Part shown: in pieces, positions 10,656 to 31,107 of the stretch
How the letters are laid out: every line of letters begins with the position of its first letter
How positions within the stretch are numbered: the stretch's first letter is position 1
Source: a virus
Reading direction: 5' to 3' (one strand)
IMG/VR virus record: IMGVR_UViG_3300033571_014509
Coordinates: 1 to 40,503 of that record
Length of the DNA stretch: 40,503 nt
The notes under the pieces: generated by a model
Databases searched by the model: none
What the model saw: only the letters and a program-made list of their open reading frames with translations
Told to the model about the DNA's origin: nothing
Program-made: the position numbers and the translations under genes

Positions 10656-10684
10656 CTCCCCGGCATCATAGGATGCCGGAGAGC
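10656..10684 (+). terminator. Rho-independent terminator after 10261-10647
   Basis: CCGGCATC (10660-10667) pairs with GATGCCGG (10672-10679), and flanking CTC/GAG adds to the stem. It is followed by CCCTTTTCCTT. It lies just past the TGA at 10647. Confidence 0.65.
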
Positions 10685-10768
10685 CCTTTTCCTTAAAACC
10701 CCAATGAGCGGCACAAGGCGACTCGTTGGTGTTTAGGTTCGTACCATACGCTTGGTATGTTACGCCTG

Positions 10769-11670: not shown

Positions 11671-11674
11671 AGGT

Positions 11675-12200: not shown

Positions 12201-12204
12201 AGGA

Positions 12205-12612
<408 letters not shown>

Positions 12613-12616
12613 AAGG

Positions 12617-14477: not shown

Positions 14478-14650
14478 GGGTGCATACGTTGAACGGCTGC
14501 GTTTAGCTGATTGCAGCGTTTGGCCGCGTCGTACTCGGACTCGTAATTGGCTACTAACTTTTTCGCACCTTCGTCTCCGATGGCGTAGACTCGGTAAACA
14601 AGTCTGTAGTGATTGTTGGAGTCCACACACTTGAAGTAGTCGTACCGCAT
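14474..14650 (-). CDS. Hypothetical protein, 58 aa
   Basis: Start at ATG 14650 (MRYDYFKCVDSNNHYRLVYR), overlapping the last base of the MoxR-like stop. A longer frame upstream only shadows the ATPase gene. A short beta segment is followed by a helix (ESEYDAAKRCNQLNAAVQRM). No family recognised. Confidence 0.55.
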   Translation of the reverse strand: MRYDYFKCVDSNNHYRLVYRVYAIGDEGAKKLVANYESEYDAAKRCNQLNAAVQRMHP

Positions 14651-15666
14651 TAGGCGAATACCTCCTGATTCTCCGTGACCCACGTGGTGAACGCGGGGGT
14701 AGCGCACAGAGAGGTGTTGAGGTTGACGGCAGTCTTCAGTGCAAAGACTGAGAACTCCTTGGGGAAGCGATCGACGTAGGTCAGGAAGTTGGCCATCGTC
14801 TTGGGCTTCACCTTCTTGGCGAGTCCGGCGCACGTGGCGTAGATCACACTGGGATCGGTCGGCACGTCGGCCTTCTCGGGGTTGAGCAGGACGGCGTCGA
14901 GGTCGGGCAGCTTCTCGTAGACTCCGAGGAAGCCGAGGAACTCAGCCGAGGCACCGGAACCAAGCACACCCTCCAGCAGTGCGTGGCGCACGTGGCGGTC
15001 GGTGCAGGTGGCCGTGACTGTAGCGGCTTTCTCCCAAGTACGGGGCGAAGCAAAGTTGCTCACGCCGTCCCACTGGGCACCATTGAAGGTGGAGAGGAGG
15101 TCGGGGCGGAAGCGGATGAACGCGATGACCAAGGGGTCAACGCCATTCTTCTGAGCCCACCTGATCCAGCTATCCAGATCGAGGCGCACCTTGATGTTGA
15201 CGATGCGGTTCACGACTGCCGAGCTGAGCTTCTCGATGTTGACTCGATCCTCGGCGCGGTTGCCAAGCAGGCAGACGAACGAGTTCTCAGGCAACACGTG
15301 CTCCCCTACCCTGCGGTCGTTGAGTAGTTGCAGGGCTACGTTCTGCACCGCTCTCGTAGCGCAGTTGAACTCCTCTAGCCCGATGACAGGGTTAGCGGTC
15401 TTCGGCCAAAAGGAAGGCTTGGAGAAGCGCATGGTCTTGTGACCCGACTCGTCGGTGTCCAAGTACGGGAAGCCCTGCACATCCTGCGGGGCGTAGTAGG
15501 CAAGGCGGGCGTCGATGAACTCAGCACCGATCTCTCGGGCATACTCGGCGACGACAGCGGACTTACCGACTCCTGGCTGTCCTTGGATGAAGGGGTTGAG
15601 CTTGGCGGCGTGGCAGTCTTTGAGGACTTGTTTGAGCTGTGACGTTGTTACCTCGATGGTGGTCAT
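14650..15666 (-). CDS. MoxR-like AAA+ ATPase (338 aa)
   Basis: Walker A is GQPGVGKS (29-36), then DARLAYYAPQDVQGFP. The Walker B region is VIGLEEFNCA, with LEEF rather than DEE; sensor 1 is CLLGNR, followed by LSSAVVNRI, as in MoxR-type AAA+ ATPases. Known MoxR proteins act as chaperones for VWA partners, for example in inserting cofactors or activating enzymes. The VWA/metallopeptidase gene lies 0.8 kb downstream and the DUF3150 gene just upstream, a set I recall from other phages. The start leader is a 29-bp duplicate of the next gene's leader. Confidence 0.85.
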   Translation of the reverse strand: MTTIEVTTSQLKQVLKDCHAAKLNPFIQGQPGVGKSAVVAEYAREIGAEFIDARLAYYAPQDVQGFPYLDTDESGHKTMRFSKPSFWPKTANPVIGLEEFNCATRAVQNVALQLLNDRRVGEHVLPENSFVCLLGNRAEDRVNIEKLSSAVVNRIVNIKVRLDLDSWIRWAQKNGVDPLVIAFIRFRPDLLSTFNGAQWDGVSNFASPRTWEKAATVTATCTDRHVRHALLEGVLGSGASAEFLGFLGVYEKLPDLDAVLLNPEKADVPTDPSVIYATCAGLAKKVKPKTMANFLTYVDRFPKEFSVFALKTAVNLNTSLCATPAFTTWVTENQEVFA

Positions 15667-15690
15667 ATTGTTATTAGGGTTAGGGTTGTT
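15662..15690 (-). repeat. Duplicated start-codon leader, copy A
   Basis: Twenty-nine bases spanning the MoxR-like start codon and its leader are identical to 15966-15994 at the next gene's start. Both contain TTAGGGTTAGGG on the plus strand. Confidence 0.9.
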
Positions 15691-15697
15691 GAATCGA

Positions 15698-15970
15698 CTA
15701 GCAGTAGACCGAGTCGGTCTTGAACGGGGGTAGGAAGCCCCCGATCTCGTTGAGGTTGTTCTTCAGGGTGATGCCGCAATCCAACGGGTTCGCCCGAGCT
15801 TCATCCCATCGGTAGCTGTACTGACCGATCTCCTCGCCGTGTACGCAGATGCCACGGCGGCGGTGGATGAACAGCACGACGCCCCCATCGGGGAACTTTC
15901 CAAGGTAGGGATACTTACGAGGCTTGGGCTCAGTCGCTGAGGTTAGGTTGGGTTCGAGGATGGAAGTCAT
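15698..15970 (-). CDS. Small conserved-looking phage protein (90 aa)
   Basis: A low-complexity start (MTSILEPNLTSATEPKPRKY) is followed by PYLGKFPDGGVVLFIHRRRG, SYRWDEARANPLDCGITLKN and GFLPP. The YLG...VVLF ... G ... W-E ... G-ITLKN pattern is shared by small phage proteins of unknown function. It sits between the DUF3150 and MoxR-like genes. Confidence 0.6.
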   Translation of the reverse strand: MTSILEPNLTSATEPKPRKYPYLGKFPDGGVVLFIHRRRGICVHGEEIGQYSYRWDEARANPLDCGITLKNNLNEIGGFLPPFKTDSVYC

Positions 15971-15994
15971 ATTGTTATTAGGGTTAGGGTTGTT
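15966..15994 (-). repeat. Duplicated start-codon leader, copy B
   Basis: Identical over 29 bp to 15662-15690. It carries the ATG of 15698-15970. Confidence 0.9.
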
Positions 15995-16004
15995 TCAGGG
16001 TTGT

Positions 16005-16017
16005 GGTTTGTGATACC
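16005..16017 (-). promoter_or_regulatory. GGTATCACAAACC motif upstream of 15698-15970
   Basis: Minus-strand GGTATCACAAACC, 34 nt before the ATG at 15970. It abuts the TAG stop of the DUF3150 gene. Confidence 0.4.
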
Positions 16018-17105
16018 TACCAGCCAAGTTTGGCTAGGAGGGCGGCTGAATCGTTGTCCGGTCCGGACTCGGTAGCTACCGAATCAAGAGCCTCGGTGAG
16101 CGGGGTCTCCTCACTCACCGATTCCTCGGTCCATTTCTTTATGGGGGCGGTGTAGGCGGGATCGCCAACCTTGGCGTTGAGTTTAAGCGTTTTAGTCCGT
16201 GGCTTGCGGGGTGCTACTACCTTGGGTGCAGGGATGGTGCCACCGAGCGACTCGATGATCGGGGCGGCATTGCTCACGGCGTCCGAGCGGTAAACCTTGT
16301 CGTCGCGAAGGCGATCGGGGTTGCAGGTCAACCGCTGGCGGATCGCGTAGACCGCGTTAACGATCTCGTCATCCTCCAAGATGTTGAGGGTCTCGGCGCG
16401 GTCACTTGCTTTCCGAAGATTCTCGACAAGGCTATCCTTGAACGTGGCTTCAGGGTTCTGCAACGTCTCGGAGAACTTGATGAGTGGGGCGAGCAACACC
16501 TCGCGGATGTAGGGGGCAACACTCTCGGCCTTCTCCTTGAACGTCTCGGCCACCGCCTCGTTGATGGAGTCAGCGATCTCGCTAAGCACGTTGAGCTTGG
16601 CGTCACGCGGGTCAGCGATCGGGAACACGTCCAGCTTGTGATGGAAGCGGGAGACAACCTCAGTGACAGCGGGGTAGTCGCTATCCTTGAAGGTTCCGTT
16701 AAGCAGACGCTTCGCGCCTTCGAGGTAGATAATGTAGTCGTCGGCCAACTTCTTTACCAAGATTTCTCGGTCGTCGAGCAGTGGGTTCAGCGCGGCACGG
16801 AGTTCGAGGAACTTGGTAGCGGGTAGTAGTCCTACGCCTCGGGCGTATGGCGCACAGAACTTGTCGAAGGTCGAGCGGAGCTTGTTGTCGAGCTTCTCAA
16901 TCTTCTCCAGCACGTCGGCAGTAGGCAGGGTATTCTTGCGAACACTCAGCACGTTGTCGTCGGAGCGGATGTTATGGGCAGAGCGTACCTTGATACTCTC
17001 GGCCTTGTCTGTCTTGACGGGGTCGTAGCGTCCGAGGTGCAGGGCAACTAGGAGCGCGGAGCTTTTGATTTTGTCGGTGATCTGGTCGTGGGTAATAGCG
17101 GTCAT
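16017..17105 (-). CDS. DUF3150-type phage protein (362 aa)
   Basis: Mostly helical, starting MTAITHDQITDKIKSSALLV. Features include NTLPTADVLEKIEKLDNKLR, YARGVGLLPATKFLELRAAL and FHHKLDVFP. The opening K-SSALLVAL, the repeated helices and the position next to MoxR and VWA genes match DUF3150. The C-terminal 70 residues are low-complexity and Lys/Thr/Ser-rich. DUF3150 has no known biochemical role; partnership with the ATPase is inferred from gene order. Its leader shares 18 bp with the gene starting at 19416. Confidence 0.75.
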   Translation of the reverse strand: MTAITHDQITDKIKSSALLVALHLGRYDPVKTDKAESIKVRSAHNIRSDDNVLSVRKNTLPTADVLEKIEKLDNKLRSTFDKFCAPYARGVGLLPATKFLELRAALNPLLDDREILVKKLADDYIIYLEGAKRLLNGTFKDSDYPAVTEVVSRFHHKLDVFPIADPRDAKLNVLSEIADSINEAVAETFKEKAESVAPYIREVLLAPLIKFSETLQNPEATFKDSLVENLRKASDRAETLNILEDDEIVNAVYAIRQRLTCNPDRLRDDKVYRSDAVSNAAPIIESLGGTIPAPKVVAPRKPRTKTLKLNAKVGDPAYTAPIKKWTEESVSEETPLTEALDSVATESGPDNDSAALLAKLGW

Positions 17106-17150
17106 TTTGTTTTAGGGTTTGCTTGTCCGGTCTGGACAAGGGTTAAGGGA

Positions 17151-17357
17151 TCAAAGGTTGAGGGTTAGTTGATGGAGGTTAGTGTGAGGTAAGTTGATGC
17201 AGTTGCGTGGTAGTTGAATATACCCGCCGACTTTCCAATGGCGGTCGATGCGAGCGATCCATGCCCGGCAATGGTTCTGACAGCGGTATGCTTGGTCATC
17301 CCATCGCCGGAGCTGGTTGATCGCGCTCAACTGCTTCGCTTTACGCAGGGCGCTCAT
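17151..17357 (-). CDS. Small basic protein (68 aa)
   Basis: Starts MSALRKAKQLSAINQLRRWD. Rich in Arg, Trp, Cys and His (YRCQNHCRAWIARIDRHW), ending LHQLTLNL. It overlaps the upstream gene by 17 bp and is followed by a TTGTCC dyad. No family recognised; the C-terminal part looks low in complexity. Confidence 0.5.
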   Translation of the reverse strand: MSALRKAKQLSAINQLRRWDDQAYRCQNHCRAWIARIDRHWKVGGYIQLPRNCINLPHTNLHQLTLNL

Positions 17358-17727
17358 CCTTGGTTGAGGTTGCGGTTGCCTTGGCGATTGCGGCTTGTGC
17401 CTTTAGGTAGATTCGATCAAGAAGGTTTGGGGCATCGGATTCGTCGCTCTCTGCGAGTTCTTTCATAGACTGCAAAGCGGCCAGCAGATCTTTAGTAGCC
17501 TCCTCGACCGCTTTGTTGATGGCATCGTTGATGGCCGAGTCGAGATCCTCGATGTAGTCGGCGACTTCGGAGGTTTCCATCCTCTCGAAGGGTTCCCAGA
17601 TAAGGATGTCTTTGTGATCCTCGGAGACCTTTTCGAGTATGGTCTCGAAGTCGTTTTTCTTTGGGTAATCCGACAGGATAAACTCAATCGCGATCTTCTC
17701 GGAGGGTAGTAGTTTGGGATTATTCAT
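17341..17727 (-). CDS. Acidic helical protein (128 aa)
   Basis: Starts MNNPKLLPSEKIAIEFILSD. Long predicted helices (VADYIEDLDSAINDAINKAV; TKDLLAALQSMKELAES) with a net acidic charge suggest a coiled-coil or dimer. No domain recognised. Confidence 0.6.
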   Translation of the reverse strand: MNNPKLLPSEKIAIEFILSDYPKKNDFETILEKVSEDHKDILIWEPFERMETSEVADYIEDLDSAINDAINKAVEEATKDLLAALQSMKELAESDESDAPNLLDRIYLKAQAAIAKATATSTKDERPA

Positions 17728-17732
17728 AGGTG

Positions 17733-17891
17733 TTAGGAGTTAAGGACAAAGGCCAAGGTCAGACCGAACGCGGTTGCAAGGATGCAGAAGAACAGGAGAG
17801 CCAAGATGGAGTAGCTCCATTCGATCTCTCGCTTGGTCTGCTGTCGCAGGAGGTAGGGTCGGACTAGGGTGTCGAGTTCTTGTGTGGTCAT
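17733..17891 (-). CDS. Small single-TM protein (52 aa)
   Basis: ATG 17891 to TAA 17733. The polar N-terminal helix (MTTQELDTLVRPYLLRQQ) leads into WSYSILALLFFCILATAFGL, a clear membrane helix with a short tail. A longer frame on the same strand overlaps it but has no sensible composition. A start with the standard CCTAAAAC-type leader supports this frame. Confidence 0.6.
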   Translation of the reverse strand: MTTQELDTLVRPYLLRQQTKREIEWSYSILALLFFCILATAFGLTLAFVLNS

Positions 17892-17910
17892 AAACTTGTT
17901 TTAGGTTCAC

Positions 17911-17947
17911 AACTTGTTGCATGGTATATGCAACCATGCAACAAGTT
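17911..17947. promoter_or_regulatory. Perfect 14-bp inverted repeat enclosing a GGTATATGCAACC motif
   Basis: AACTTGTTGCATGG (17911-17924) and CCATGCAACAAGTT (17934-17947) are exact complements around a 9-nt spacer. The centre contains the GGT...ACC motif (17923-17935). It sits 20-56 nt before the ATG at 17891. An operator or promoter-overlapping site is likely; as RNA it would be a very stable hairpin. Confidence 0.65.
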
Positions 17948-17978
17948 TGTGGGTCATAGGGTTGTTGTCCGGACTGGA

Positions 17979-18647
17979 CTAGGCGGCAAGTAGTCGGCGG
18001 CGTGCAGGTAACGTGCTGGCAAGCACCGCGTTACGAGCGGCACGGGCATGACTGTGAGCGTGGCATTGATCTTTAGCCGCCTCGAATCGGGCGGGCAGAG
18101 TCAGGCCGAAACGCTGTATCGAGACAGCAGCTTTGTGGCACCATTCGAGGACAAACTCGAAGGGATACGGGACGCGGCTTCGCAGATACGAGGCAACATA
18201 CTCATCCAGCCACTTGATCTCGTGGTAGAACACTAGGGCACCGAGGTCGGCCTCGGTCACGCTATCGAGCAAGAGGTTTGCGCTGTAGTCCTTCACCAGT
18301 CGATAGATCTCGGAGATGCCCTGTGCGGGGAGGTCATCCACTTGAGGCAGATAGACCAGACCATCGGAAGGAATGGCTCCTCGTACCGCCTCGATATGCC
18401 GCCTTGTCGTCGGGCTGAAGGATCGCAGGGTTACAAGGTACCAGAGCTTTCCGGTGTCAGGTGCCTTCCACTTCCGAGCAATGCAGAAGTGCTGGCCGTA
18501 GGAGTAGATGCTACCGGTGACGGGGTGCCGATCGCAGGATGACCCGTAGGCAATCATCCGGTTCTTGTCGGTGTTGGCACGCTCGGTGATGGTGCCGCTC
18601 ACCCAGTCTCGGGCAAGCTCGTCGTTGTTCTTGTAGTATGTTTTCAT
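17979..18647 (-). CDS. SYGxHF-type phage protein (222 aa)
   Basis: Starts MKTYYKNNDELARDWVSGTI; the diagnostic stretch is IYSYGQHFCIARKW followed by WYLVTLRSFSPTTRRHIEAV. I recognise the iYSYGxHFxIA...T-x-SxTTxxH pattern from a large family of small phage proteins without known function. The C-terminal half (LVFYHEIKWLDEYVASYLRS and an Ala/Arg-rich tail) is not part of that motif. The stop codon is formed by the right arm of a TTGTCC dyad. Confidence 0.7.
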   Translation of the reverse strand: MKTYYKNNDELARDWVSGTITERANTDKNRMIAYGSSCDRHPVTGSIYSYGQHFCIARKWKAPDTGKLWYLVTLRSFSPTTRRHIEAVRGAIPSDGLVYLPQVDDLPAQGISEIYRLVKDYSANLLLDSVTEADLGALVFYHEIKWLDEYVASYLRSRVPYPFEFVLEWCHKAAVSIQRFGLTLPARFEAAKDQCHAHSHARAARNAVLASTLPARRRLLAA

Positions 18648-18674
18648 GGTAGGTTCGTTTCGTTATTGGGTTGC

Positions 18675-18687
18675 GGTTAATGATACC
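18675..18687 (-). promoter_or_regulatory. GGTATCATTAACC motif upstream of 17979-18647
   Basis: Minus-strand GGTATCATTAACC, 27 nt before the ATG at 18647 and immediately beside a TTGTCC dyad (18688-18704). Confidence 0.4.
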
Positions 18688-18711
18688 TTGTCCGGACAGG
18701 ACAAAGCGGGG

Positions 18712-19416
18712 TTAGATGTTGGCGCATAGCTCGATTGCGAGCTTGTCTTGGTGTTTAAGGTGGCTGTCGATGATGTACCTGGCTTCCTCGATGACATAAT
18801 CGAAGTTGCCTTTTTCGTCGGGGAAGTAGCCCCAGCAGGAGTCGATCTCCTCGCCTTCCTCGTCCTCGACGATGCGGCCAACGACATCCCCTCGCATGAA
18901 GGCGTCGTACTCGCTCACCTCTGCCTTGAGGCAACGGGTAGCCCGCTCGATGGACTCCTCCAGCGTGTCGCTGGGCCATTCCTTACGGGCTTGCTCGAAG
19001 CTGATGTAGATGTAGCCGACTTGTCCGCTGTCCCAAGGGCACGAGAACTTTCCCGTACTCATTGACAGACCGCCGTGGTCATAGAGATAGAGCGGCAGGA
19101 TGACATAATTCTTATCAACATACTCGCGGGCTTGCTTGAAGGATTCCTCATCCAACAGGCTGAGCGGGTCAAGGTAGTCGTCGTAATCGTCCGTCTCGAT
19201 ACCGAGCAACCTAGCCTTGGCTTCAAAGTAAGGTGCGGCGAGTTGCAGGATGAAATCGGTAGGCGAAGCATAGTCATGCTTCTCTCCGAGGTTATAGCGG
19301 TTGTGCCAGCAAACCATCTTGCCAGCCGGATCGCAGTCTTCGCGGGGATTCCAAGGGTCTTCGTCTTGTTCGAGTCGGATGGTGCATCCTTTGTAGGTTT
19401 CTTCGTGGTAGCTCAT
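18712..19416 (-). CDS. Conserved phage protein with LPLYLYDH and CPWDSGQVG motifs (234 aa)
   Basis: Acidic. Motifs in order: DEDPWNPREDCDPAGKMVCW near the N-terminus; YVILPLYLYDHGGLSMS; FSCPWDSGQVGYIYIS; EVSEYDAFMRGDVVG; EEIDSCWGYFPDE. I recall this exact motif order (DPWNPRE, LPLYLYDHxG, CPWDSGQVGxIY, YDxxxxGDVxG, DSCWG) from many phage genomes. It is always uncharacterised, sometimes near antirestriction genes. Complete length for the family. Confidence 0.75.
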   Translation of the reverse strand: MSYHEETYKGCTIRLEQDEDPWNPREDCDPAGKMVCWHNRYNLGEKHDYASPTDFILQLAAPYFEAKARLLGIETDDYDDYLDPLSLLDEESFKQAREYVDKNYVILPLYLYDHGGLSMSTGKFSCPWDSGQVGYIYISFEQARKEWPSDTLEESIERATRCLKAEVSEYDAFMRGDVVGRIVEDEEGEEIDSCWGYFPDEKGNFDYVIEEARYIIDSHLKHQDKLAIELCANI

Positions 19417-19468
19417 TTTGTTTTAGGGTTGAAGGGTTGCTTTGTCGCTTGTCCGGTCTGGACAAGGG

Positions 19469-19822
19469 TTAGGCATCCCAAGGCACAAGACCTTTGCGCC
19501 ATGAGACTTCGAGGGTAATCTTGCAATCATCCCATTGACTGACGGGGGAGATCTCCCACTTATCCCACTTGATGTCGCCGTCCTCGGTCTCATCAGTCCC
19601 GACATAGAGGCGGGTCTTCATGAGGCGGGCAGGTCGTGTTCCGTCCTTAGTCGTGAGGGTATGAGTGGCACCACGATCGCGTGACCAAGCGCAGGGGGCG
19701 CAATGGAACACCTCATGGGTGTGGCCGTACTCTTTCTCACGGACGATGGAGAGGGTGAAATACCCCGTTTGCGATAGCAAAGGTACTTCGCGATTGACGA
19801 AGGGATTTAAGGTCATGGGCAT
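19469..19822 (-). CDS. Hypothetical protein, 117 aa
   Basis: Starts MPMTLNPFVNREVPLLSQTG (an alternative ATG lies two codons in). Contains EVFHCAPCAWSRDRG, a CxxC-type knuckle, and a beta-rich C-terminus with IKWDKWEISP. No family recognised. A TTGTCC dyad follows the stop by 3 nt. Confidence 0.55.
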   Translation of the reverse strand: MPMTLNPFVNREVPLLSQTGYFTLSIVREKEYGHTHEVFHCAPCAWSRDRGATHTLTTKDGTRPARLMKTRLYVGTDETEDGDIKWDKWEISPVSQWDDCKITLEVSWRKGLVPWDA

Positions 19823-19853
19823 GAGTGTAATTTTGATGCTTGTCCGGTCTGGA

Positions 19854-20141
19854 CTAGTGAATCACGGGAACAGGGTTGCTAGGGAATAGGCGCTTCAGGG
19901 AAGGGCGGTCACACTTGAGGACAAACGCTTGTCCCGTACCCTTCGGGTGTCCCCACGGATTCTCCATGCGGGACACCGCTTCCTCGTCGCTATCTGCAAC
20001 AAAGCCGCCGCCACATCCGTTACCTCTGTAGCTGTATGAGTAGCGGCCTTGATCGGGGGCGTAATTGTTCTCGTCACGATACAGCTCCAGCCAGTCGTGA
20101 CCTTTAGTTTGCCAGCGGGCAATCGCAGTGGTTGAGTCCAT
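19854..20141 (-). CDS. Hypothetical protein, 95 aa
   Basis: Start at ATG 20141 (MDSTTAIARWQTKGHDWLEL); the frame stays open upstream through the 8-bp repeat array, but that extension is repeat-encoded. Contains GRYSYSYRGNGCGGGFVADS and GQAFVLKCDRP. The TAG stop lies in the right arm of a TTGTCC dyad. Confidence 0.6.
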   Translation of the reverse strand: MDSTTAIARWQTKGHDWLELYRDENNYAPDQGRYSYSYRGNGCGGGFVADSDEEAVSRMENPWGHPKGTGQAFVLKCDRPSLKRLFPSNPVPVIH

Positions 20142-20386
20142 AGGATTAGTGGATAAGAGGTGCAGGGTTGCAGGATTGCAGGATTGCAGGATTGCAGGAT
20201 TGCAGGGTCGCAAGGTTGCAGGGTCGCAAGGTTGCAGAGTAGGGAGTCCGTTTCGGAATCAAGGGGGCTACCCTCAGCAATGGATTGCGCTAGTTTTTCG
20301 GCTCGCTCCAAGCGTTCGGAGCGTGAGGTGGACGGCACCCAGCAAAAGCTGAAGTCGTCGGGATTGTGGTCGTTGTAGGTTGGCAT
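19895..20386 (-). CDS. Small protein with repeat-driven read-through (164 aa as read; about 50 aa native)
   Basis: Start at ATG 20386 (MPTYNDHNPDDFSFCWVPST). The native part is about 50 residues to SETDSLLC. From there the frame runs through the 8-bp repeat array (NLATLQPCDPAILQSCN...) and then out of frame over the 5' half of the downstream gene to 19895. The tail is almost certainly an artefact of repeat expansion that removed the original stop. Its leader shares 18 bp with that of the gene at 38782-38976. Confidence 0.5.
   Translation of the reverse strand: MPTYNDHNPDDFSFCWVPSTSRSERLERAEKLAQSIAEGSPLDSETDSLLCNLATLQPCDPAILQSCNPAILQPCTSYPLILWTQPLRLPAGKLKVTTGWSCIVTRTITPPIKAATHTATEVTDVAAALLQIATRKRCPAWRIRGDTRRVRDKRLSSSVTALP
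20160..20240. repeat. Ten-unit array of an 8-bp repeat, GCAGGRTY
   Basis: Consecutive units read GCAGGGTT, GCAGGATT (four times), then alternating GCAGGGTC and GCAAGGTT, ending GCAGAGTA. Single or double degenerate units occur near 5605-5630, 11273-11320, 14235, 15325, 18420, 21029, 24522, 25125-25150, 25240 and 25465-25495. Confidence 0.9.
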
Positions 20387-20403
20387 GGTCGTGTTTTGCG
20401 CCA

Positions 20404-20680
20404 AAGGCGCAGGTTCATTTTTATAGGGTTGCCCCGCACTTGCTGGCGGCAGGGCTTAGCCGTTGGAATCTGATGGATCGACTTGCTGGCGTTGATCTGG
20501 CCATTAGCTTTTAGCTCCCGACTGGCTGGCTAGGGTGTTGGCCGTAACTCGTATGAGTTTGAGTCCCACTTTCCTTCCAACTCTGGACACCATTCGAGAC
20601 CGCTGGGGTCATGGGGTCGGGGCTAAAGATGATGTAAAAGTGTCGCGGTTAATGATACCGAGCCGCTTGTCCGGACTGGA
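20404..20680. other. Gap of about 280 bp with a small hairpin and no gene
   Basis: GCGCC-AAA-GGCGC (20398-20410) is a short hairpin near the start of 19895-20386, and a GGT...ACC motif lies at 20647-20659 with no obvious gene for 260 bp downstream. No tRNA folds well here. A short untranslated RNA from that motif is possible. Confidence 0.3.
20647..20659 (-). promoter_or_regulatory. GGTATCATTAACC motif, gene target unclear
   Basis: Identical to the copy at 18675-18687 and, like it, located just downstream of a TTGTCC dyad. The next minus-strand ATG (20386) is 260 nt away. Confidence 0.35.
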
Positions 20681-20764
20681 CTAGGCGAAGAGGCAGAAGA
20701 TGATGAAGGCGCAAAAGGCTGAGTAGAGAGCGAAGCCAAGCGCGTTGAGTAGGATCGGGGTCAT
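20681..20764 (-). CDS. Tiny hydrophobic membrane peptide (27 aa)
   Basis: ATG 20764 to TAG 20681 gives MTPILLNALGFALYSAFCAF followed by IIFCLFA, almost entirely hydrophobic. The TAG is the right arm of the dyad at 20667-20683, as in three larger genes, and a GGT...ACC motif lies 22 nt upstream. The gene architecture therefore supports it despite its size. Confidence 0.55.
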   Translation of the reverse strand: MTPILLNALGFALYSAFCAFIIFCLFA

Positions 20765-20786
20765 AATTTGTTTAAGGTTGAATTGT

Positions 20787-20799
20787 GGTTGCATATACC
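20787..20799. promoter_or_regulatory. GGTTGCATATACC motif between divergent genes
   Basis: Lies 22 nt before the minus ATG at 20764 and 32 nt before the plus ATG at 20832, so it could serve either or both. Confidence 0.4.
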
Positions 20800-20831
20800 G
20801 GCAGAAAGTGATAAGGCAAGTGGTTTCGTAT

Positions 20832-21533
20832 ATGAATCAACTAAACGTGCCTTGGGATAAGATTAAAGACGCGGTAGAATCTGGGATGCCCATGCGCCAA
20901 GTTGGAGAGTTGTTTGCCATCAAACTACCTACGATCAAGGCGAGGAGCTTGAGGGAAAAGTGGTCTACGCCGAAACGCCGTTCGGATGCATTGAAAAAAG
21001 AGTTATCGGAGAAGGGTAACAGAGTAGCAGGGGTGCAGGATCGCATGGTTGCAATCAACAATTCCTTGGAAGAACAGATGAAGGACGCGGAAGATGGTCA
21101 AATATCTACAGCGAGATCGAAAGTGGTTGATTTTGACCAAGCGACTAAGGATTACCGGAGCAAAGGCGTTCTCAAGATGGCAAAGCTACTCGATCAAACG
21201 ATTATTGCGCCCCCTCGCACTTGGAAAGACTACGACATTGCTGACAAGATGATGAGGAGACTGCTAGGCATTGACGACAACGAAGGGAAATCCAACACGA
21301 TTGTTAGTCTACAACTAGTCAACGATCGCTTGGCCGCAGGGCGGCAGGATGACATCGTAGAGGGCGATTTCATCGAGGAAAGTGTCCCCGAGGCGTCATT
21401 TTCTGACCCTCTACAGAGTAAATTGACGGGTGCCAAGTCCGCTCCCCCTTCCGGTGAAGTACCGGAAGAGGGTCAGGGCTTGTCCGGACTGGACTATTCT
21501 GCCGACTCGCCAGCCTCGAGGGCGGCAGAGTAG
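20832..21533 (+). CDS. HTH protein, terminase-small-subunit-like or regulator (233 aa)
   Basis: Start at ATG 20832 (MNQLNVPWDKIKDAVESGMP). An N-terminal helix-turn-helix (MRQVGELFAIKLPTIKARSL), then REKWSTPKRR, resembles the DNA-binding end of phage terminase small subunits and relatives (VxxGMSxRxxAExFGVxxxTxxxRxxREKW). The middle is helical (GVLKMAKLLDQTI; DIADKMMRRLLG), and the tail is Pro/Ser/Gly-rich. It is a lone plus-strand gene inside a minus-strand block, and its last 40 bp overlap the 3' end of 21494-21886. A transcriptional or packaging role is possible. Confidence 0.6.
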   Translation: MNQLNVPWDKIKDAVESGMPMRQVGELFAIKLPTIKARSLREKWSTPKRRSDALKKELSEKGNRVAGVQDRMVAINNSLEEQMKDAEDGQISTARSKVVDFDQATKDYRSKGVLKMAKLLDQTIIAPPRTWKDYDIADKMMRRLLGIDDNEGKSNTIVSLQLVNDRLAAGRQDDIVEGDFIEESVPEASFSDPLQSKLTGAKSAPPSGEVPEEGQGLSGLDYSADSPASRAAE

Positions 21534-21886
21534 GCGCGGCGTAGAGCTACGTTTGCGTTGTCGGCGGCCAGCTCTACAGCCAACTCAACGAGTTGGGCAA
21601 TGATCGCCTCGTCTATGACGATCTTATTCTTCACAGTGGCGGCACGTTCGCGGATTCCAAGGGCGAGGAAGATCTCGGAAACCCTCTGCTTGGGAACCTT
21701 GTGAGCCGTGACCAGCTCCTTGCGAAGAGCCTTCAAAAGCTCCTTCTTGTTGTCCTTGTCAGATTCAACAAGAGCCTTGACGGCTTTCTTGGCGGCTTCA
21801 AGGGCTTTGTCGTAACCAAGGTGAATCTTGGCAAATTCGGCGACGATGACGGCGGTGGACTCGATGGTGATGTTATTGTTGTTCAT
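21494..21886 (-). CDS. Helical protein (130 aa)
   Basis: Start at ATG 21886, after the normal leader type; an upstream in-frame ATG (21953-21955) would add 23 residues encoded partly by a TTGTCC dyad and is less likely. Asn-rich start, then long helices (YDKALEAAKKAVKALVESDK; NKKELLKALRKELVTAHKVP). KVPKQRVSEIFLALGIRER looks HTH-like. The TAG is formed by the dyad at 21480-21496. Confidence 0.6.
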   Translation of the reverse strand: MNNNNITIESTAVIVAEFAKIHLGYDKALEAAKKAVKALVESDKDNKKELLKALRKELVTAHKVPKQRVSEIFLALGIRERAATVKNKIVIDEAIIAQLVELAVELAADNANVALRRAYSAALEAGESAE

Positions 21887-21961
21887 TTCAGTAGTGTTGT
21901 TGGATGTTTTAGGTTGAGCTTGTCCGGACTGGACAAGCGGTTTCTCTGTAGTCATTTGACT

Positions 21962-22012
21962 CCAGAAGTCTGCCCCCTATGTTATTTAGTAACAAAGGGG
22001 CAGGGTTTCTGG
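21962..22012. ncRNA. Three-segment 51-nt hairpin
   Basis: CCAGAA (21962-21967), TGCCCC (21971-21976) and GTTA (21981-21984) pair in order with TAAC (21990-21993), GGGGCA (21997-22002) and TTCTGG (22007-22012). The loop is TTTAG and the internal loops are small. Sixteen base pairs in register are unlikely by chance. Direction unknown. Confidence 0.5.
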
Positions 22013-22031
22013 TTTCAATAAATCGAGTTCA

Positions 22032-22067
22032 CAAGGGGAAGGTAAAGCTATTTACTCCCCCGCCTTG
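22032..22067. ncRNA. Second hairpin, 36 nt
   Basis: CAAGG (22032-22036) pairs with CCTTG (22063-22067) and GTAAA (22042-22046) with TTTAC (22051-22055) around a GCTA loop. G-rich and C-rich tracts between them can extend the stem. It lies 20 nt after the first hairpin. Confidence 0.4.
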
Positions 22068-22332
22068 CTACTTGCGTCGAGCGCCCTGCCGCCTTTTCAT
22101 CACTGACGAGGAGGCAACCTACTGGACTGATCCAGTGCCTTTCCCCGTGATGTTGGATTGATCATTCACAGGACTAACGCTTTGACGGCTTAGCTTGAAG
22201 GGCTTCCACTCCACCCTTCCGCTTGCGGCCTATGTTTCCACCGCCTTTCCCCCTTCCATGCGTACCTCGTTCCCAAGGGGTGCGAAGCAAGTTTCAGAGT
22301 TCAAGAGCGGCCTAGCCGACTGCCGTTTTTAG

Positions 22333-22382
22333 ACTGTTGCGGGTGATGTTCTGAAGGCAGCACCCGCTCCACCTTCAACAGT
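22333..22382. ncRNA. Third hairpin, 50 nt with two stacked stems
   Basis: ACTGTTG (22333-22339) pairs with CAACAGT (22376-22382), and directly stacked CGGGTG (22340-22345) with CACCCG (22361-22366). A 15-nt loop and a 9-nt bulge on one side remain. Thirteen pairs in total. Confidence 0.5.
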
Positions 22383-22557
22383 TAATGTCCACCCCACCCA
22401 TTTCCGGCTTGTCCGGTCGGGACAAAGGGGCCTCACGCGCGCGTCGCGTTCGTTAGAGGCAGACCTACCGGGGGTGGGGTGGGGAGTGGGGTAGGCCGCT
22501 CAGCTTCAAGACGTTACATATATACGCTTGCAAAAAAAAAGTTTCAAAACTTGCTCA

Positions 22558-22590
22558 TAGACAAACTCGAATTAAAAGGTATCATACACC
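22558..22590 (+). promoter_or_regulatory. Promoter of the HNH gene overlapping a GGTATCATACACC motif
   Basis: TAGACA (22558-22563), 16 bp, then TATCAT (22580-22585), the latter inside GGTATCATACACC (22578-22590). The ATG is 6 nt past the motif, so the transcript leader would be very short. Confidence 0.5.
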
Positions 22591-22596
22591 GCGCAT

Positions 22597-23700
22597 ATGA
22601 AAACTAAACTGAAACGCGGATGTGTTAGGGAAGACGGACTGGCATTTAACGTCAGGATAAACGGAGAAGACCAGTGGGTTTCCCCGGAAGAATTACAGGT
22701 AATTCGAGATGAGGAGCGAAAGTACTACCTAAAAAACAAAGCTAAAATCAAAGAACGGACAAGAGAATGGCAAAAGGCCAACCCAGACAGGTATCGGGAG
22801 CTAACCAAGAATTGGACGCAGAATAATCAGGATAGAATCGAGGCGTACAAGGCTAAGGCTAAAGAGGGGCGGAAACTGAAATCTGAAGAATACTGGAAGC
22901 AGTTCAACCAGGCTGTTCAAGAGAGGAGAAAAGCAAAAGCCGCCAGGATGGAGGTGGAAAAAGAATTGAGGCGTAAAGATAGGGAGGCTAAGCGCGAAGA
23001 GGCCGCTAAGAACCGGGCCGCGATTAAACGAGAAACGCGGGAGAAACACAGCGCGGAACGGAGGGAAGCCAAACTACTAGAGCAGAGGGAAGCCAAACTC
23101 CAGGGGAGAGGCTACAGGAGGAAAGACGGAAAGATTCTTTGGAAGCCAACGGGGAATAACCCAAGGAAGTGGGTGTGGGTTAGCCCGGAAACATTTGAAG
23201 GGCGAAGGCGGAAACTTCAAGAATACTGGATACAACGGGAAAAACAAAAAGCCATGAGCGAGGAAACGAGAAAAGCCCAGCTTCGGCGGAGGAGACAGAG
23301 GCAAAAAGAAAAATATCGAAGCAACCCAGAACTAAAAAGAGAATACAATCGGAAACAGAGGGCGCAGGAAAAGAGGAGGAATCCTGAAAAATATAAAGCC
23401 AGGAAAGCGGCGCAGAGGAAAGCTCGGGAAATCAAGGCGAAGGTTAAGCTGACTGACAGAGAGCGGGCACTTACCACGGAGATATACTTGCAGGCAGCTC
23501 GCGTTTCCAACTGCCTAGGAATACCCTTCCACGTGGATCATATATTGCCGATTATGCTCGGCGGACTTCACCACCCAACGAATCTTCGAGCCATCCCTGG
23601 AAATATCAACCTCAGCAAAAGCCATTTAATCACACCCGAAGTGGAAACCTGGCTGCTGGGCAGACCAGTATCGGAATTAAACCTCCAAAAAGCCGCTTAA
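22597..23700 (+). CDS. Coiled-coil HNH endonuclease-like protein (367 aa)
   Basis: About 280 residues of Lys/Arg/Glu-rich, probably coiled-coil sequence contain tandem-like units (KNKAKIKERTREWQKANPDR; RSNPELKREYNRKQRAQEKR). They end in an HNH core: IPFHVDHILPIMLGGLHHPT, then NLRAIPGNINLSKS. The D-H pair, the following L-G-G-L-H-H-P-T-N-L and N-x2-K-S match HNH nucleases with long charged N-termini found in phages. The plus-strand lone position suggests a mobile or moron gene. The IxPIML codons contain a TTGCCGATTATG word (23545-23556) that recurs as an iteron downstream. Confidence 0.75.
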   Translation: MKTKLKRGCVREDGLAFNVRINGEDQWVSPEELQVIRDEERKYYLKNKAKIKERTREWQKANPDRYRELTKNWTQNNQDRIEAYKAKAKEGRKLKSEEYWKQFNQAVQERRKAKAARMEVEKELRRKDREAKREEAAKNRAAIKRETREKHSAERREAKLLEQREAKLQGRGYRRKDGKILWKPTGNNPRKWVWVSPETFEGRRRKLQEYWIQREKQKAMSEETRKAQLRRRRQRQKEKYRSNPELKREYNRKQRAQEKRRNPEKYKARKAAQRKAREIKAKVKLTDRERALTTEIYLQAARVSNCLGIPFHVDHILPIMLGGLHHPTNLRAIPGNINLSKSHLITPEVETWLLGRPVSELNLQKAA

Positions 23701-23814
23701 AACCGTTTTCCGCTCCCACGACCCACAAAAACCCGAAAAACTCGCTGGCGGGGCGGCTAGGTGGCAAGAATCAGGGCTTCTGGGCGAGGTGGTGCAGGGC
23801 TTTTTCTAAACCCA

Positions 23815-23844
23815 TCGAATTCGAGAGGTTTAGAAATCGAGTTG
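23815..23844. repeat. Hairpin with 8-bp perfect arms
   Basis: TCTAAACC (23815-23822) and GGTTTAGA (23837-23844) enclose the palindrome TCGAATTCGA. No T run follows on either strand, so a terminator is uncertain. Confidence 0.6.
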
Positions 23845-23927
23845 CCGAGCGTTGACTTGCCGATTATGTTGCCGATCATCAACAACAAGTAAATGTTGCA
23901 TATATGCGACATAATTGCCGATTATGT
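23842..23927. repeat. TTGCCGA(TTATGT) iterons with central 20-bp palindrome
   Basis: TTGCCGATTATGT occurs at 23857-23869 and 23915-23927, with shorter TTGCCGA at 23842 and 23869. Between them ATGTTGCATATATGCGACAT (23893-23912) is palindromic except for one mismatched pair. Confidence 0.7.
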
Positions 23928-24139
23928 AGCGTAAAGTTGACATTGCACACTACACTTCCCGTGTGTATCGTGCACAATTTGTGTACCATTCCTAGACAGA
24001 TATGGACAAATGTAGGGGTTTTGTAAGAAAAACTGCCCACTTTTTCCTACAAGAGTTACCATTCAAAGATAGTATAAGCCGTTTACTACCAATAAGTAGT
24101 ACGCAAACAAGAGTATTCGAGGGTTCGCATTCAATAGGA

Positions 24140-24218
24140 ACTGGGTCGGTACTGGGTCGGTATCTGTCCCCCCGAAAAGGACAACTGGGTCGATTCCTGT
24201 CCTTGCAACAGGGACAGA
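24140..24218. repeat. ACTGGGTCGRT direct repeats with long-range dyad
   Basis: ACTGGGTCGGT is tandemly repeated (24140-24150, 24151-24161), with a third copy ACTGGGTCGAT (24184-24194). TCTGTCCC (24163-24170) is complementary to GGGACAGA (24211-24218) across the third copy. Confidence 0.75.
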
Positions 24219-24290
24219 TTCCCGAGCAGCCGCATTTATACGGCCTGCCCGTAATAATGCCCGAATATACCCGATAGGGAATAAAATGCC

Positions 24291-24340
24291 CTATATGTCA
24301 AAAAACAGGCCCTTTCGGGTATAAGCTGATCTATATGTCA
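24291..24340. repeat. CTATATGTCA pair with inverted GGGTATA words
   Basis: CTATATGTCA is exact at 24291-24300 and 24331-24340. Around them TATACCCG, CGGGTATA and GGGTATAC alternate in orientation. Confidence 0.65.
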
Positions 24341-24428
24341 TCTTTTTAGGGTATACTCGGCATCTTTGGCGAGTTACCGCATCTTCAAAAGGGCGCTATC
24401 GTCGTTTCTGGCGAGTTATTTGCCAAGA

Positions 24429-24500
24429 TCGACGGAATTCTGTCGAAAAGTCGCTTTAAGCCGAGGCTAACGCACGATTTTGAAACAGAATGTGCGTTAG
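24429..24500. repeat. Two dyads, TCGAC/GTCGA and CTAACGCAC/GTGCGTTAG
   Basis: 24429-24446 is an 18-bp palindrome with one wobble pair around GAATTC. 24467-24475 and 24492-24500 form a 9-bp perfect stem with a 16-nt loop. Confidence 0.6.
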
Positions 24501-24895
24501 GAGGCGCTTTCTGTAACGGATTCAGGGTTACAAGGTGCCAGGGCAAAACAAATCATTGCATCATTTGAAAGGATGTGTAGAGTCAGCAACGGAATCAGGC
24601 GAAGCCCGTAACACGGACAAGCATGGTTCCTCATCTCGCCAGTTCGTTTCGACGGCTGGCTGCGGGAGTCGGTGCCGTATGGCATTCCTATCCCTGCATA
24701 AATCGGGGGAGGCATCGAGGGCGGTTGAGGGGTTAACCCACAGCCGAGCGACCTGGACCTCCTCCGACCTTTTTGTTGGAGGCAACAATATGGTTTAGCC
24801 CCTGCATCAAGATTCCCCCATGAGGGGATTATCTCAGCGTCTGGTAATCAACCTATGATTCATTTCAACGAGTTACGATAATCAAGCAGCCTCCG

Positions 24896-25196
24896 GTTAG
24901 GGCAATCTGTTAGGGTTCTACAGAGGCTGTTAGGGTTTGCGTTGTAAGACCCTAACAACGCAAGTCGTTGATTTCCAGTTGGTAGTGAGAGATTGTTAGG
25001 GTAGTTAGGGTATAAAGTTAAAAATAGAAGGGGAACACTATCTCCTACCTACTGCCCCGCCGCCGCCGCCCGCCGCCCCGTCAATTCCAAAACCACCCTA
25101 ACTGCCCTAACTGCCCTAACAGCGTCCTTGTAACCCCCTGCCCTGCAACCCTTTAACTCTGTTAGGGTTTTCTGTTAGGGCAAGCGTTTGTTAGGG
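24896..25196. repeat. Twelve GTTAGGG / CCCTAAC motifs in 300 bp
   Basis: GTTAGGG at 24896, 24909, 24929, 24995, 25004, 25161, 25174 and 25190; CCCTAAC at 24950, 25096, 25105 and 25114. The last three are tandem with a 9-bp period (CCCTAACTG). Forward-reverse-forward clustering allows large stems. Confidence 0.9.
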
Positions 25197-25404
25197 CAGT
25201 ACCCCGGAACCCTACGTTAAGTGACATTAAACACCACCACTCTGCTACCCTGCAACCCTGATACCTATCTATCCGATATAACTTCTACAAACATCTCAAA
25301 AATATATTATACCTGCATACTACCCCATACCTACCCGATCTCTAACATACGATATAACATATCTAACACCAAAACAAATATATTAAATCCTTAAGACAAC
25401 AAGA

Positions 25405-25474
25405 AGCCCTGCATCACTAACACCAGATATAACGTACTCCCGAACATTATATTAGGGTTAAGTGATGCAGGGCT
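25405..25474. repeat. 14-bp perfect inverted repeat across the AT-rich segment
   Basis: AGCCCTGCATCACT (25405-25418) and AGTGATGCAGGGCT (25461-25474), with a 42-nt loop. It borders the AT-rich stretch and the 3' end of the minus-strand operon at 25521, so an origin stem or a terminator-like element are both possible. Confidence 0.6.
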
Positions 25475-25520
25475 ACAGGGTTGCAGGACTGCACTTAACA
25501 GGTTACTTAATTATTGGCAG

Positions 25521-28446: not shown

Positions 28447-30216
28447 TTACTTCTTATAGACTTTGGAAAGGGAGCCTTCGGCGGAGAGCGGGAGGCCGGA
28501 AGCCCACTCGGGCTCTGAGGACATGATGGCGATGATCTGTTCCAGCTTCTCCTGGGCGGAGTCTTCCGGAACGAGGCAGACGACTTCGTCGTGGACGTGC
28601 ATGACGACGGGGATTCCCGCCTTCTCGATCTCCACGCAGTGGTGCATGAAGACATCGCGTGCCACGCCCTGCACCAGATTTTCCGTGCAGACGCCTCCCC
28701 ATAGGCCAAGGCGCATGAGCTTGCCTTGTCTTGGTATGAGTGAGGTGAGTCCGCCGTTATCGACGGAAACCTTCCGATACTTCAGCTCCCGGCCCGACGG
28801 GAACTTCATGGAAGCGTCCTCCTCTGGGTTCTTCGCCGTGTCGCGTAGGTTCTGCTCCAGATCGCGCCAGAGTGCGGTGATCTTCGGGTTCTTTCTGCGG
28901 TAGAGTCGGGTGAGTCTGTCCGCCTCAATGGAATCCACTCCAGCCACAGTGGCAAATTTCTTGGAGCCCATTCCATAACCGAGGCCGAGCGCCAACTGTT
29001 TCATCATGTGACGTACCTTGGGGGCTTGCTCCTTCATGCTCCCCTCCCCGTTCCAGATGCCCCAGGCTCGGGCCTGTGCCTCATAGAGATCGGGAATCTG
29101 GCGGATATAGCGCAGGGTTGCTTTGTCTTCCGCAAGCCAGTGCAGGCATCGCGGTTCAATCTGCGAGAGATCAACAATCGCAAATGTATAGCCCTCGGGT
29201 GCCTTGACCTTGGAGCGCACATCGACGCCGCTGACCAAGCCCTTGGGGAGGTTGTGCATATTGAGACCGCTGTCACCCGAGAACCTTCCGGTGTGTGCCC
29301 CGAAATAGCGGATTCCGTAACTCATCCACCCGTCCGGCCTTGCTCGCTTGAGCATGGTCTCCAGGGTCGAGAGGTGCTTGGAGGATTTGCGGTATTCGCG
29401 CACCGCTTGGAGCCAAGGATGGTTTTTGCCGTGCTCCTCGAAGAATTGCTCAGCCTCAGGGTCGGCCTGAGCGAAGCTCTTAGGTGCGGTGAGGCCGTGC
29501 TTGGCGCACTCCTCGCGCAGGGCGATGGGAGAGAGCAAAGCGGCGTCGTCTTTCCACGGGATCGACTGCTTGTATTCCCAGAGGGAGGTCTTGAGCAACT
29601 CGATGTCGGCTTCGAGACCCGGAATATCGAGGGGAACTCCTCTCAGGGCCATGGAACGGGTCATCTGACTGATCTCCCGCTCCCTTTCCGGCCATTTGTG
29701 GCCGTGTTGAAGCCAGATTTCCAAGCAGTAAACCGCGTCATCAAGGGCGTATTTGCACACCTCTTCCTTGAATTCCGGCGTCATTTCGGCCCAACGCTGG
29801 CCTTTCATCTTGTCGCGGACGTCCTTGGACAGCTTGACCCCCAGGAGAAGGTTTGCAGCCTCCTTCAAAGACCTGGGGAAGCCAAGGAACGCGGTCAGAT
29901 CCGCTGTGTCGTGCCACGCATTGATCGCTAGGTGCTGGGGTACGTTCGGGAGGTTTTTCTCCTCCGCGATTTCTTGAATCCGTTGAAAAACTGGGAGGTC
30001 GAATTGAGCATTGTGGCTAAGCCAAGTGCAGTCAGGGCCAGATATAGAACTCCAATCGAAAGCGAGGGGATCGCCCACGTATCGAATGCCCGAGTCAGTT
30101 GCAATGCTGACCATGTAAAGATCCGCCTGGGGGTGGCGGAGGTAGTGGTAGATGCCAAGCTCCGTAATGGTAACGTCCTTGTCATAGTAGGTCTCGAAGT
30201 CGATCGCGCAGATCAT
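28447..30216 (-). CDS. Family A DNA polymerase with 3'-5' exonuclease (589 aa)
   Basis: Start at ATG 30216 (MICAIDFETYYDKD); a longer frame upstream only translates the structured leader. Exonuclease motifs: DFE (6-8), SHNAQFD (67-73) and YALDDAVYC (156-164). Polymerase motif A is VDLSQIEPR (348-356), motif B R402/K406 through GYGMG (413-417), motif C HDE (542-544). TGRFSGDSGLNMHNLPKG (309-326) is the usual phage PolA signature. All catalytic residues are intact. Short form with no 5' nuclease domain, as in T7-like and many temperate phages. Confidence 0.93.
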   Translation of the reverse strand: MICAIDFETYYDKDVTITELGIYHYLRHPQADLYMVSIATDSGIRYVGDPLAFDWSSISGPDCTWLSHNAQFDLPVFQRIQEIAEEKNLPNVPQHLAINAWHDTADLTAFLGFPRSLKEAANLLLGVKLSKDVRDKMKGQRWAEMTPEFKEEVCKYALDDAVYCLEIWLQHGHKWPEREREISQMTRSMALRGVPLDIPGLEADIELLKTSLWEYKQSIPWKDDAALLSPIALREECAKHGLTAPKSFAQADPEAEQFFEEHGKNHPWLQAVREYRKSSKHLSTLETMLKRARPDGWMSYGIRYFGAHTGRFSGDSGLNMHNLPKGLVSGVDVRSKVKAPEGYTFAIVDLSQIEPRCLHWLAEDKATLRYIRQIPDLYEAQARAWGIWNGEGSMKEQAPKVRHMMKQLALGLGYGMGSKKFATVAGVDSIEADRLTRLYRRKNPKITALWRDLEQNLRDTAKNPEEDASMKFPSGRELKYRKVSVDNGGLTSLIPRQGKLMRLGLWGGVCTENLVQGVARDVFMHHCVEIEKAGIPVVMHVHDEVVCLVPEDSAQEKLEQIIAIMSSEPEWASGLPLSAEGSLSKVYKK

Positions 30217-30234: not shown

Positions 30235-30346
30235 GTAGCCCGCCGCCGCTGTTCGCCTATGGGTCCCGACCACCCACGGGGTGTGACCTGTCGGGGTATG
30301 CCAGATCCGGAGATCTCCTCCGGCTTCTAGGGCGGCGGCGAGCTAC
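30235..30346 (-). ncRNA. Structured RNA element, three-way junction, in the DNA polymerase leader
   Basis: The whole gap before the polymerase gene folds. Plus-strand arms 30235-30249 and 30332-30346 are 15 bp with one C-A mismatch; on the minus strand that position becomes a U-G wobble, so the stem is complete in the gene-sense RNA. Inside are P2, CCGGAG/CTCCGG (30307-30323, 5-nt loop), and P3, CCCGAC/GTCGGG (30265-30270 and 30290-30295) enclosing CACCC-ACG-GGGTG (30271-30283). It ends 18 nt before the ATG. Could be a cis-regulator, processing site, ribozyme or trans-acting RNA. I do not recognise the class. Confidence 0.65.
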
Positions 30347-30354: not shown

Positions 30355-31107
30355 TTAGATGTTCGCCAGACTTGCGAAGAACTCAGCCTTCTCGGCGCTG
30401 TGCTTACCGGCGAACTTGCCGACTGGCACATACCAGGAGTTGGAGGCGTTCTTGCGGATCTCGGAGCTGATCTCGTACTGACCGAGATGGAGTCCGCCCT
30501 TGAGGAGGAACGTCGCATCGGTGAGGAGACGCTTGCCGAGTGAGGTGTATGCGCTGGCAGCGATCGTGTAGATGGCCAGGGCGTAGTCGTTCTCTCCGTC
30601 GTTGTAGGCGAAGAAATCCTTGGCGTCCTCGTCGAGATCAGCAGGTGCCTTCACTGCAAGCATGATGTCGGCCACTTCTTGGAAGTACCTTTCATGCCCG
30701 TAAATGAGGGAGCCCCCGAGTGCTCGGACTTCCTCGGCGGTGTTAGCCTTAATAGGCATCTCCTCCGATTTCCCGAACTCGACCTTCTCCTGATAGTATT
30801 TCTTCAGGCGAAGCGCGGTTGCCACGAAGGACTCGCCGGGCTTAGCCAGCACGATTTCCTTCTCGAACAAGAAGGACCCCGGAGCGAACCGATCGCAGAG
30901 CTGTCCGGATTTCTGGACGAGGTTGACGCGGGGGACCCGAAGGTCATCCGAGGTGATCTCGCCGGAGATTCCGCTTGCGTTGTGTGCAGGAGCAACCGCG
31001 AGCGGCTTAGGCTCGATGACTGCAACTGCGGTTTCAGTGACGACCGGAGCGGGCGCAGCGGTCGGGAGTTGTGTGTCGCCTTTGGGGGCGAAGGTTATGG
31101 TAGCCAT
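30355..31107 (-). CDS. Probable phage ssDNA-binding protein (250 aa)
   Basis: Starts with a Pro/Ala/Val-rich flexible stretch of about 45 residues, then ISGEITSDDLRVPRVNLVQK, FAPGSFLFEKEIVL and FVATALRLKKYYQEKVEFG, ending GKFAGKHSAEKAEFFASL. The I-x-x-DDxxxPRxNLVQKxG opening is typical of a phage protein encoded between helicase and polymerase genes. I take it as a single-strand-binding or recombination-mediator analogue by position; no OB-fold signature is provable by eye. Confidence 0.6.
   Translation of the reverse strand: MATITFAPKGDTQLPTAAPAPVVTETAVAVIEPKPLAVAPAHNASGISGEITSDDLRVPRVNLVQKSGQLCDRFAPGSFLFEKEIVLAKPGESFVATALRLKKYYQEKVEFGKSEEMPIKANTAEEVRALGGSLIYGHERYFQEVADIMLAVKAPADLDEDAKDFFAYNDGENDYALAIYTIAASAYTSLGKRLLTDATFLLKGGLHLGQYEISSEIRKNASNSWYVPVGKFAGKHSAEKAEFFASLANI

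Follow-up and report, generated by a model that had tools for sequence, protein, structure and literature searches.

The question raised by this locus is what kind of RNA occupies the leader of a viral DNA polymerase gene, and whether it is tied to that gene at all. The window, by which we mean the whole stretch of DNA analysed (40,503 nucleotides, positions 1 to 40,503 of IMG/VR record IMGVR_UViG_3300033571_014509), carries on its minus strand a 112-nt RNA at 30235-30346, the sequence and coordinates of which were confirmed. This RNA fills most of the 138-nt gap between an upstream gene and the polymerase gene, with its 5′ end 8 nt past the upstream stop codon and its 3′ end 18 nt ahead of the polymerase ATG. 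The minus-strand fold reached -62.5 kcal/mol, whereas shuffles averaged -44.7 (sd 3.84; z -4.64); 0 of 200 shuffles matched its stability, and the plus strand of the same interval gave a z of -3.43. Just one other minus-strand stem of 15 pairs spanning 60-160 nt (G-U allowed) was found in the whole window.

The 15-bp closing stem (P1) that had been proposed is present, its one U-G pair lying on the gene-sense strand. Both hairpins claimed within it were also found, namely the 6-bp P2 and a 6-bp CCCGAC/GUCGGG stem with an inner helix, but the latter had been taken for the junction helix P3 and is instead an apical hairpin inside the P3 arm. Comparative data assign P3 to UGG/CCA, 30301-30303 with 30260-30262, adjoining P2, and P2 itself gains two pairs (GA/UC) past an A-G/A internal loop. 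The parts of the RNA and its flanking genes are as follows (alignments A9 and A11 and model R3 are defined below).

30355..31107, minus strand: upstream gene, 250 aa, weak Pam3_gp34-like match; synteny conserved, stop 8 nt before the RNA
30235..30346, minus strand: whole three-way-junction RNA, 112 nt; fold z -4.64, matched by R3 at 30239-30342 (56.7 bits, E 2.1e-11)
30332..30346, minus strand: 5′ arm of P1, 15 nt; 11/11 modelled P1 pairs vary on both sides among relatives
30328..30331, minus strand: J1/2, CC and conserved UA; column U14 invariant, A15 invariant in A9 and A11
30326..30327, minus strand: 5′ side of P2b, GA (GG or GC in relatives), pairing with 30304-30305
30324..30325, minus strand: internal loop A-G opposite A at 30306; A invariant, then a purine, in A9 and A11
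30307..30323, minus strand: P2 hairpin, 6 bp, pentaloop GAGAU (30313-30317; consensus GANNN); stem covaries, loop GA invariant
30304..30305, minus strand: 3′ side of P2b, UC; covaries
30301..30303, minus strand: 5′ side of P3, UGG; covaries among members
30265..30295, minus strand: P3b apical hairpin, CCCGAC/GUCGGG, with a 19-nt apical region AGGUCACACCCCGUGGGUG; covaries between the window and relative L109
30260..30262, minus strand: 3′ side of P3, CCA; covaries
30250..30259, minus strand: J3/1, UAGGC and conserved GAACA; G, A, C and A of GA(A/U)CA invariant in A9 and A11
30235..30249, minus strand: 3′ arm of P1; the helix contains the one U-G pair
28447..30216, minus strand: family A DNA polymerase gene downstream of the RNA, Pfam DNA_pol_A 2.5e-28

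Elsewhere in the window, no tRNA genes were found. The interval 24000-25500 is intergenic, with GTTAGGG repeats and several long inverted repeats, among them nested stems of 15 pairs at plus-strand positions 24993-25122, and 18 copies of 8-bp repeats of the type TGCAGGGT/TGCAGGAT are scattered over 5609-25497. Positions 12617-13807 and 14650-15666 encode a DUF2201 metallopeptidase/VWA-like protein and a phage ATPase (phrog_1297); a similarly annotated ATPase adjoins a putative von Willebrand factor protein in Gordonia phage GMA6.

No isolated phage similar at the DNA level was revealed by nucleotide BLAST with the leader and operon, and a first scan with the polymerase protein gave only relatives of ~40% identity, without an RNA of the window type. 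Close relatives were recovered through scans with the upstream protein and a primase-like protein (upstream protein identity to the window 86% for L100, 62% for L101 and 51-54% for L102-L104; further L106 and L107, and L109-L131 via an alignment search). Most of their polymerase leaders showed the same architecture with a different stem sequence, while a plain hairpin stands in place of the RNA in L104, L113, L114 and L115. In L100 (IMGVR_UViG_3300042290_000428), an ORF with an HNH-like motif (~8890-9580) separates the RNA from the polymerase gene, an insertion that has left the RNA intact.

In an alignment of six polymerase leaders (A6), 99.1% of pair cells held standard pairs and 17/19 pairs had changed on both sides, giving a score of 0.968, whereas shuffles scored 0.307 and slid partners no more than 0.189. 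Model R1, built from A6, added further polymerase leaders, and 18 of the 19 pairs had changed on both sides in the resulting alignment A7, itself fitted to the model; compensatory variation is seen in each of the 11 modelled P1 pairs. In P3b, four of six pairs differ in compensation between the window and L109 around an identical 19-nt apical loop; this hairpin is not kept in short family members. Pairing has thus been kept while sequence changed, the opposite of the outcome (sequence kept, pairing lost) that would have refuted the original prediction. Since shape is kept while letters change, the RNA has a selected job.

The same family was then sought away from the polymerase gene, by scanning 2.9 million viral contigs with unbiased DNA patterns (the P2 region, then P2 linked to GAACAC). 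Covariance-model searches retained copies in L133, L146/L149, L147, L148/L132, L142, L150, L136, L137, L195, L209, L210/L232 and L212/L241; those in L136 and L137 are additional polymerase-leader copies and the others sit elsewhere. Alignment A9 (11 copies, polymerase and non-polymerase) was 98.8% paired with 19/22 pairs changed on both sides, the three-pair P3 included, and A11, made of nine non-polymerase copies only, had 17/22 such pairs. A6, A7, A9 and A11 all beat 500/500 shuffles and every slid control. Model R3, built from A11 alone and hence from no polymerase-leader copy, found the window and the other 17/17 polymerase-leader copies searched at E <=1.2e-5 and at the expected places. 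E-values of the R models are rough because calibration was shortened.

The consensus runs P1 (5-16 bp, free sequence), nnUA, P2, P3, ~5 nt, GA(A/U)CA and P1′. P2 consists of GN/N′C, an A-R/R internal loop, 6 bp and a GANNN loop, its outer pairs (P2b) covarying as GG/CC, GA/UC and GC/GC; P3 is made of three covarying pairs around a variable arm (GGG/CCC, AGG/CCU, GAG/CUC, UGG/CCA or GCG/CGC). The conserved A of J1/2 is replaced by U in L100 and L123-L127. The window fits the family letters (CCUA, AG/A, GAGAU, GAACA), with GA/UC rather than GG/CC as P2b, and meets the family criterion of P1, P2 and P3 covarying in a shared three-way junction. It is near certain that a structured RNA family exists, of which the window RNA is one copy.

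The contexts of these copies undo the implied tie to the polymerase gene, the same family occurring in tRNA arrays and after unrelated genes of other viruses. Copies in tRNA arrays are found in actinophage-like contigs: the RNA ends 4 nt (L142) and 12 nt (L150) ahead of a tRNA gene, and in L195 it immediately follows a tRNA-like sequence with a CCA end. L142 weakly resembles Gordonia phages and L150 matches a Rhodococcus phage over a short stretch, and hosts are not established. On the L195 minus strand, the 400 nt preceding the RNA contain a tRNA-like sequence with a CCA end that ARAGORN did not call, and the 80 nt following the RNA contain a second long imperfect hairpin, ahead of tRNA-Ile. 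The copies in L209, L210, L232, L212, L241, L147 and L148 are located after a 78-aa gene, those in L133 and L146 overlap or abut the 3′ end of a 65-73-aa gene, with T-rich sequence and promoter-like motifs coming next (UUUUUU directly after the L133 copy), and some copies occupy 3′ untranslated regions or the space between tRNAs. P1 is only ~5 bp in L212 and L148. No virus record has more than one confident copy. The L133, L146 and L149 viruses have polymerase, helicase, upstream and primase genes in common with the window yet hold the RNA elsewhere, so the RNA has either changed place within related genomes or been newly inserted. No single protein cluster extends to all carriers, several of whose records are fragments, and the actinophage-like carriers have one cluster in common with the 78-aa-gene group only.

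A further model, R2, gave no match at E<=1 in 57 other loci (875 kb, more distant polymerase relatives included) and none in Gordonia, Rhodococcus, Roseobacter and Vibrio isolate regions. Under strict filters, Verrucomicrobiota (388 genomes) and the phylum of genome G444 (395 genomes) gave no matches, and the phylum of G443 (343 genomes) gave one weak match (G851, E 4e-5, ~140 nt downstream of tRNA-Arg), which is unresolved; given these filters, absence of the RNA there is not proven. Two weak R3 matches in L263, the stronger inside an annotated gene, were not accepted, and weak matches in G022 (a stretch judged coding by eye) and in L317/L316 (R3) were set aside as chance.

Ribozymes, packaging RNAs and translational operators are among the small RNAs known from phages, and precedents exist for orphan phage RNAs as such. 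By the available tests, the RNA described here matches none of those kinds. No Rfam family reached threshold in the window and none was significant for the leader alone, which bears out the prediction that no known class applies. Rfam 15 at gathering threshold gave 0 matches in the window and in L102/L121, searches with single copies gave weak, chance-level matches only, and at E<=0.5 the six loci with other copies yielded only tRNA and sites away from the RNA. We consider the RNA class new, with no match in 4227 Rfam families; this concerns the class and not a proven mechanism, and published motif lists outside Rfam were not compared by sequence.

The closest likenesses are to other phage RNAs. 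ROOL and GOLLD, structured RNAs of phages or prophages without a known function, often lie close to tRNA islands, GOLLD often exceeding 800 nt and ROOL containing multiple pseudoknots (PMC12286853). The present family resembles them as a phage RNA of unidentified function with some copies near tRNAs, but is a three-way junction ~73-141 nt long, and neither of their Rfam models matches it. T4 RNA C and RNA D are likewise small stable RNAs within a phage tRNA cluster; identity with them was rejected, R1 and R2 finding nothing in the T4 tRNA region (L261). A likeness to 5S rRNA (UAG ... GAUGGU ... UAGG-GAAC before the closing stem) was dropped, no 5S match having appeared in any scan, and a check by eye for kissing or a pseudoknot linking J3/1 to the P3 loop found a fit in L142 and L195 only.

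The explanation we favour, with a probability of roughly 40% and a mechanism that is inferred, is a phage RNA domain carried in transcripts: its junction and P2 loop would bind a host factor, and in the window operon its P1 would double as an intercistronic stem. A compact three-way-junction domain would be transcribed within an operon or tRNA array in double-stranded DNA phages, and the unpaired UA of J1/2, the A-R/R loop, GANNN and GA(A/U)CA may form a docking surface, for which there is no known binding partner. The docking factor is presumed to be host-supplied because no protein family is common to all carriers; this absence favours either a host partner or an RNA acting alone. The host partner is argued only from that lack, and several carrier records are fragments. 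In the window operon, P1 would separate the two cistrons between the upstream stop and the polymerase start and may reduce or stabilise the polymerase mRNA, a task that may fall in some relatives to a plain or terminator-like hairpin. Such a role is a local addition and cannot be general, because P1 is so short in L212 and L148 and some copies are in 3′ UTRs or between tRNAs. That no binding partner, transcript or phenotype is known for the RNA counts against this explanation.

The RNA could instead be a purely intercistronic element, in which P1 serves to stabilise, process or partly terminate the transcript between the upstream gene and the polymerase, with the interior of lesser importance. 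This is unlikely, although far from negligible. P1 holds a steady position in 14 close-clade leaders, ending 13-21 nt ahead of the polymerase ATG and beginning ~5-10 nt past the upstream stop, and plain hairpins stand in for the RNA in some relatives. Terminator-like hairpins within 120 nt of the start are strongly enriched ahead of distant polymerase relatives (39/78 leaders vs 2/297 other long ORFs), the Fisher p-value overstating significance because related sequences are not independent. Runs of at least five T follow P1 in several leaders but not in the window itself, where P1 is followed by UCCCCUUUCC with a longest T run of 3; the intrinsic-terminator criterion of a GC-rich stem and immediate U run is unmet, and no terminator was called at the site. 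A simple stem, moreover, has no need of junction and loop letters conserved across very different contexts, and P1 is reduced to ~5 bp in L212 and L148.

Two other structures were seen in leaders. Among distant relatives, the polymerase leaders of L007, L009, L080, L082 and L083 have a different common element, TAATGYGGCGG ... GGTAACCRCATAAAA, between a small ORF and a terminator-like hairpin, which looks like a second candidate structured RNA. L008 (near 4890-4980), L020, L075 and L079 have another common structure, CATGAGAGGGATCGCCTAC ... GTAGGCACTCTCATG, with TTTACGTAGTCGTACGTAAA before it.

Rather improbable, with cleavage untested, is an undescribed self-cleaving ribozyme separating cistrons or tRNAs. 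Its multi-stem junction with conserved unpaired letters, core forms of ~74-95 nt and occurrence at most once per genome near phage tRNAs would suit one, and the HDV-like theta ribozymes of gut phages, small structured RNAs adjoining phage tRNAs, are a precedent (PMC10879173). The RNA resembles these in size and tRNA proximity, but has no HDV-like Rfam match and no evident nested double pseudoknot. None of the known self-cleaving ribozyme models in Rfam (hammerhead, HDV, twister and others) matched it, a P1 of 13-16 bp would keep the cut pieces joined in polymerase leaders, and ten candidate motifs picked on similar grounds failed to cleave in vitro (PMC10085705).

We hold a translational operator bound by the polymerase or upstream protein to be quite improbable; there are no binding data. 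The precedent is T4/RB69, T4 gp43 binding a hairpin ~40 nt before its own start (PMC3014915), and both systems place a conserved RNA hairpin and loop in a phage DNA polymerase leader. The T4 gene 43 operator, however, is a hairpin plus sequence overlapping the ribosome site, whereas the present family is a three-way junction that leaves the start region unpaired. It also fails the criterion of confinement to polymerase mRNA leaders: the same core lies in tRNA arrays, after unrelated genes and at other intergenic sites, and L133 and L146 possess a polymerase gene but hold the RNA elsewhere. A core common to copies without an adjacent polymerase is not a polymerase-specific operator. A Shine-Dalgarno match was found for 0/29 window genes checked, so its absence before the polymerase is not special, and this points to a host making little use of Shine-Dalgarno sequences. 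A hidden Shine-Dalgarno in P2 was rejected on the same count, and the P2 sequence is not conserved.

A metabolite riboswitch controlling the polymerase merits little credence: leader position and junction architecture would suit it, but there is no Rfam riboswitch match at the RNA, no alternative expression platform was seen, and the gene context varies to include tRNA arrays and sites followed by promoter-like or terminator-like sequence. A DNA-level recombination or replication site folding by chance, suggested by the inverted-repeat arms in a replication operon, can practically be set aside, since the arm sequence is free, the RNA lies on the flanking-gene strand in the contexts examined, and the sense strand tolerates G-U but not A-C (13 vs 0 pair cells in A9, 10 vs 3 in A7 and 8 vs 0 in A10, the sets overlapping). 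Because G-U occurs and A-C is rare or absent, the RNA is most likely read on the gene-sense strand, an inference from the letters alone; together with the leaders that keep pairing while changing sequence, this wobble bias supports the selection at RNA level that had been proposed.

The consensus is sharp: a covariance model finds the RNA in viruses without any protein cluster spanning all of them. The RNA is small enough to be synthesised and probed at once, so its function is directly testable. It is possible, if doubtful, that the RNA represents a new functional class, whether a self-cleaving ribozyme built on a new core or a decoy for a widely conserved host RNA-binding protein. If this were true, it would be an RNA spread among phages of distant hosts and able to sit in any transcript.
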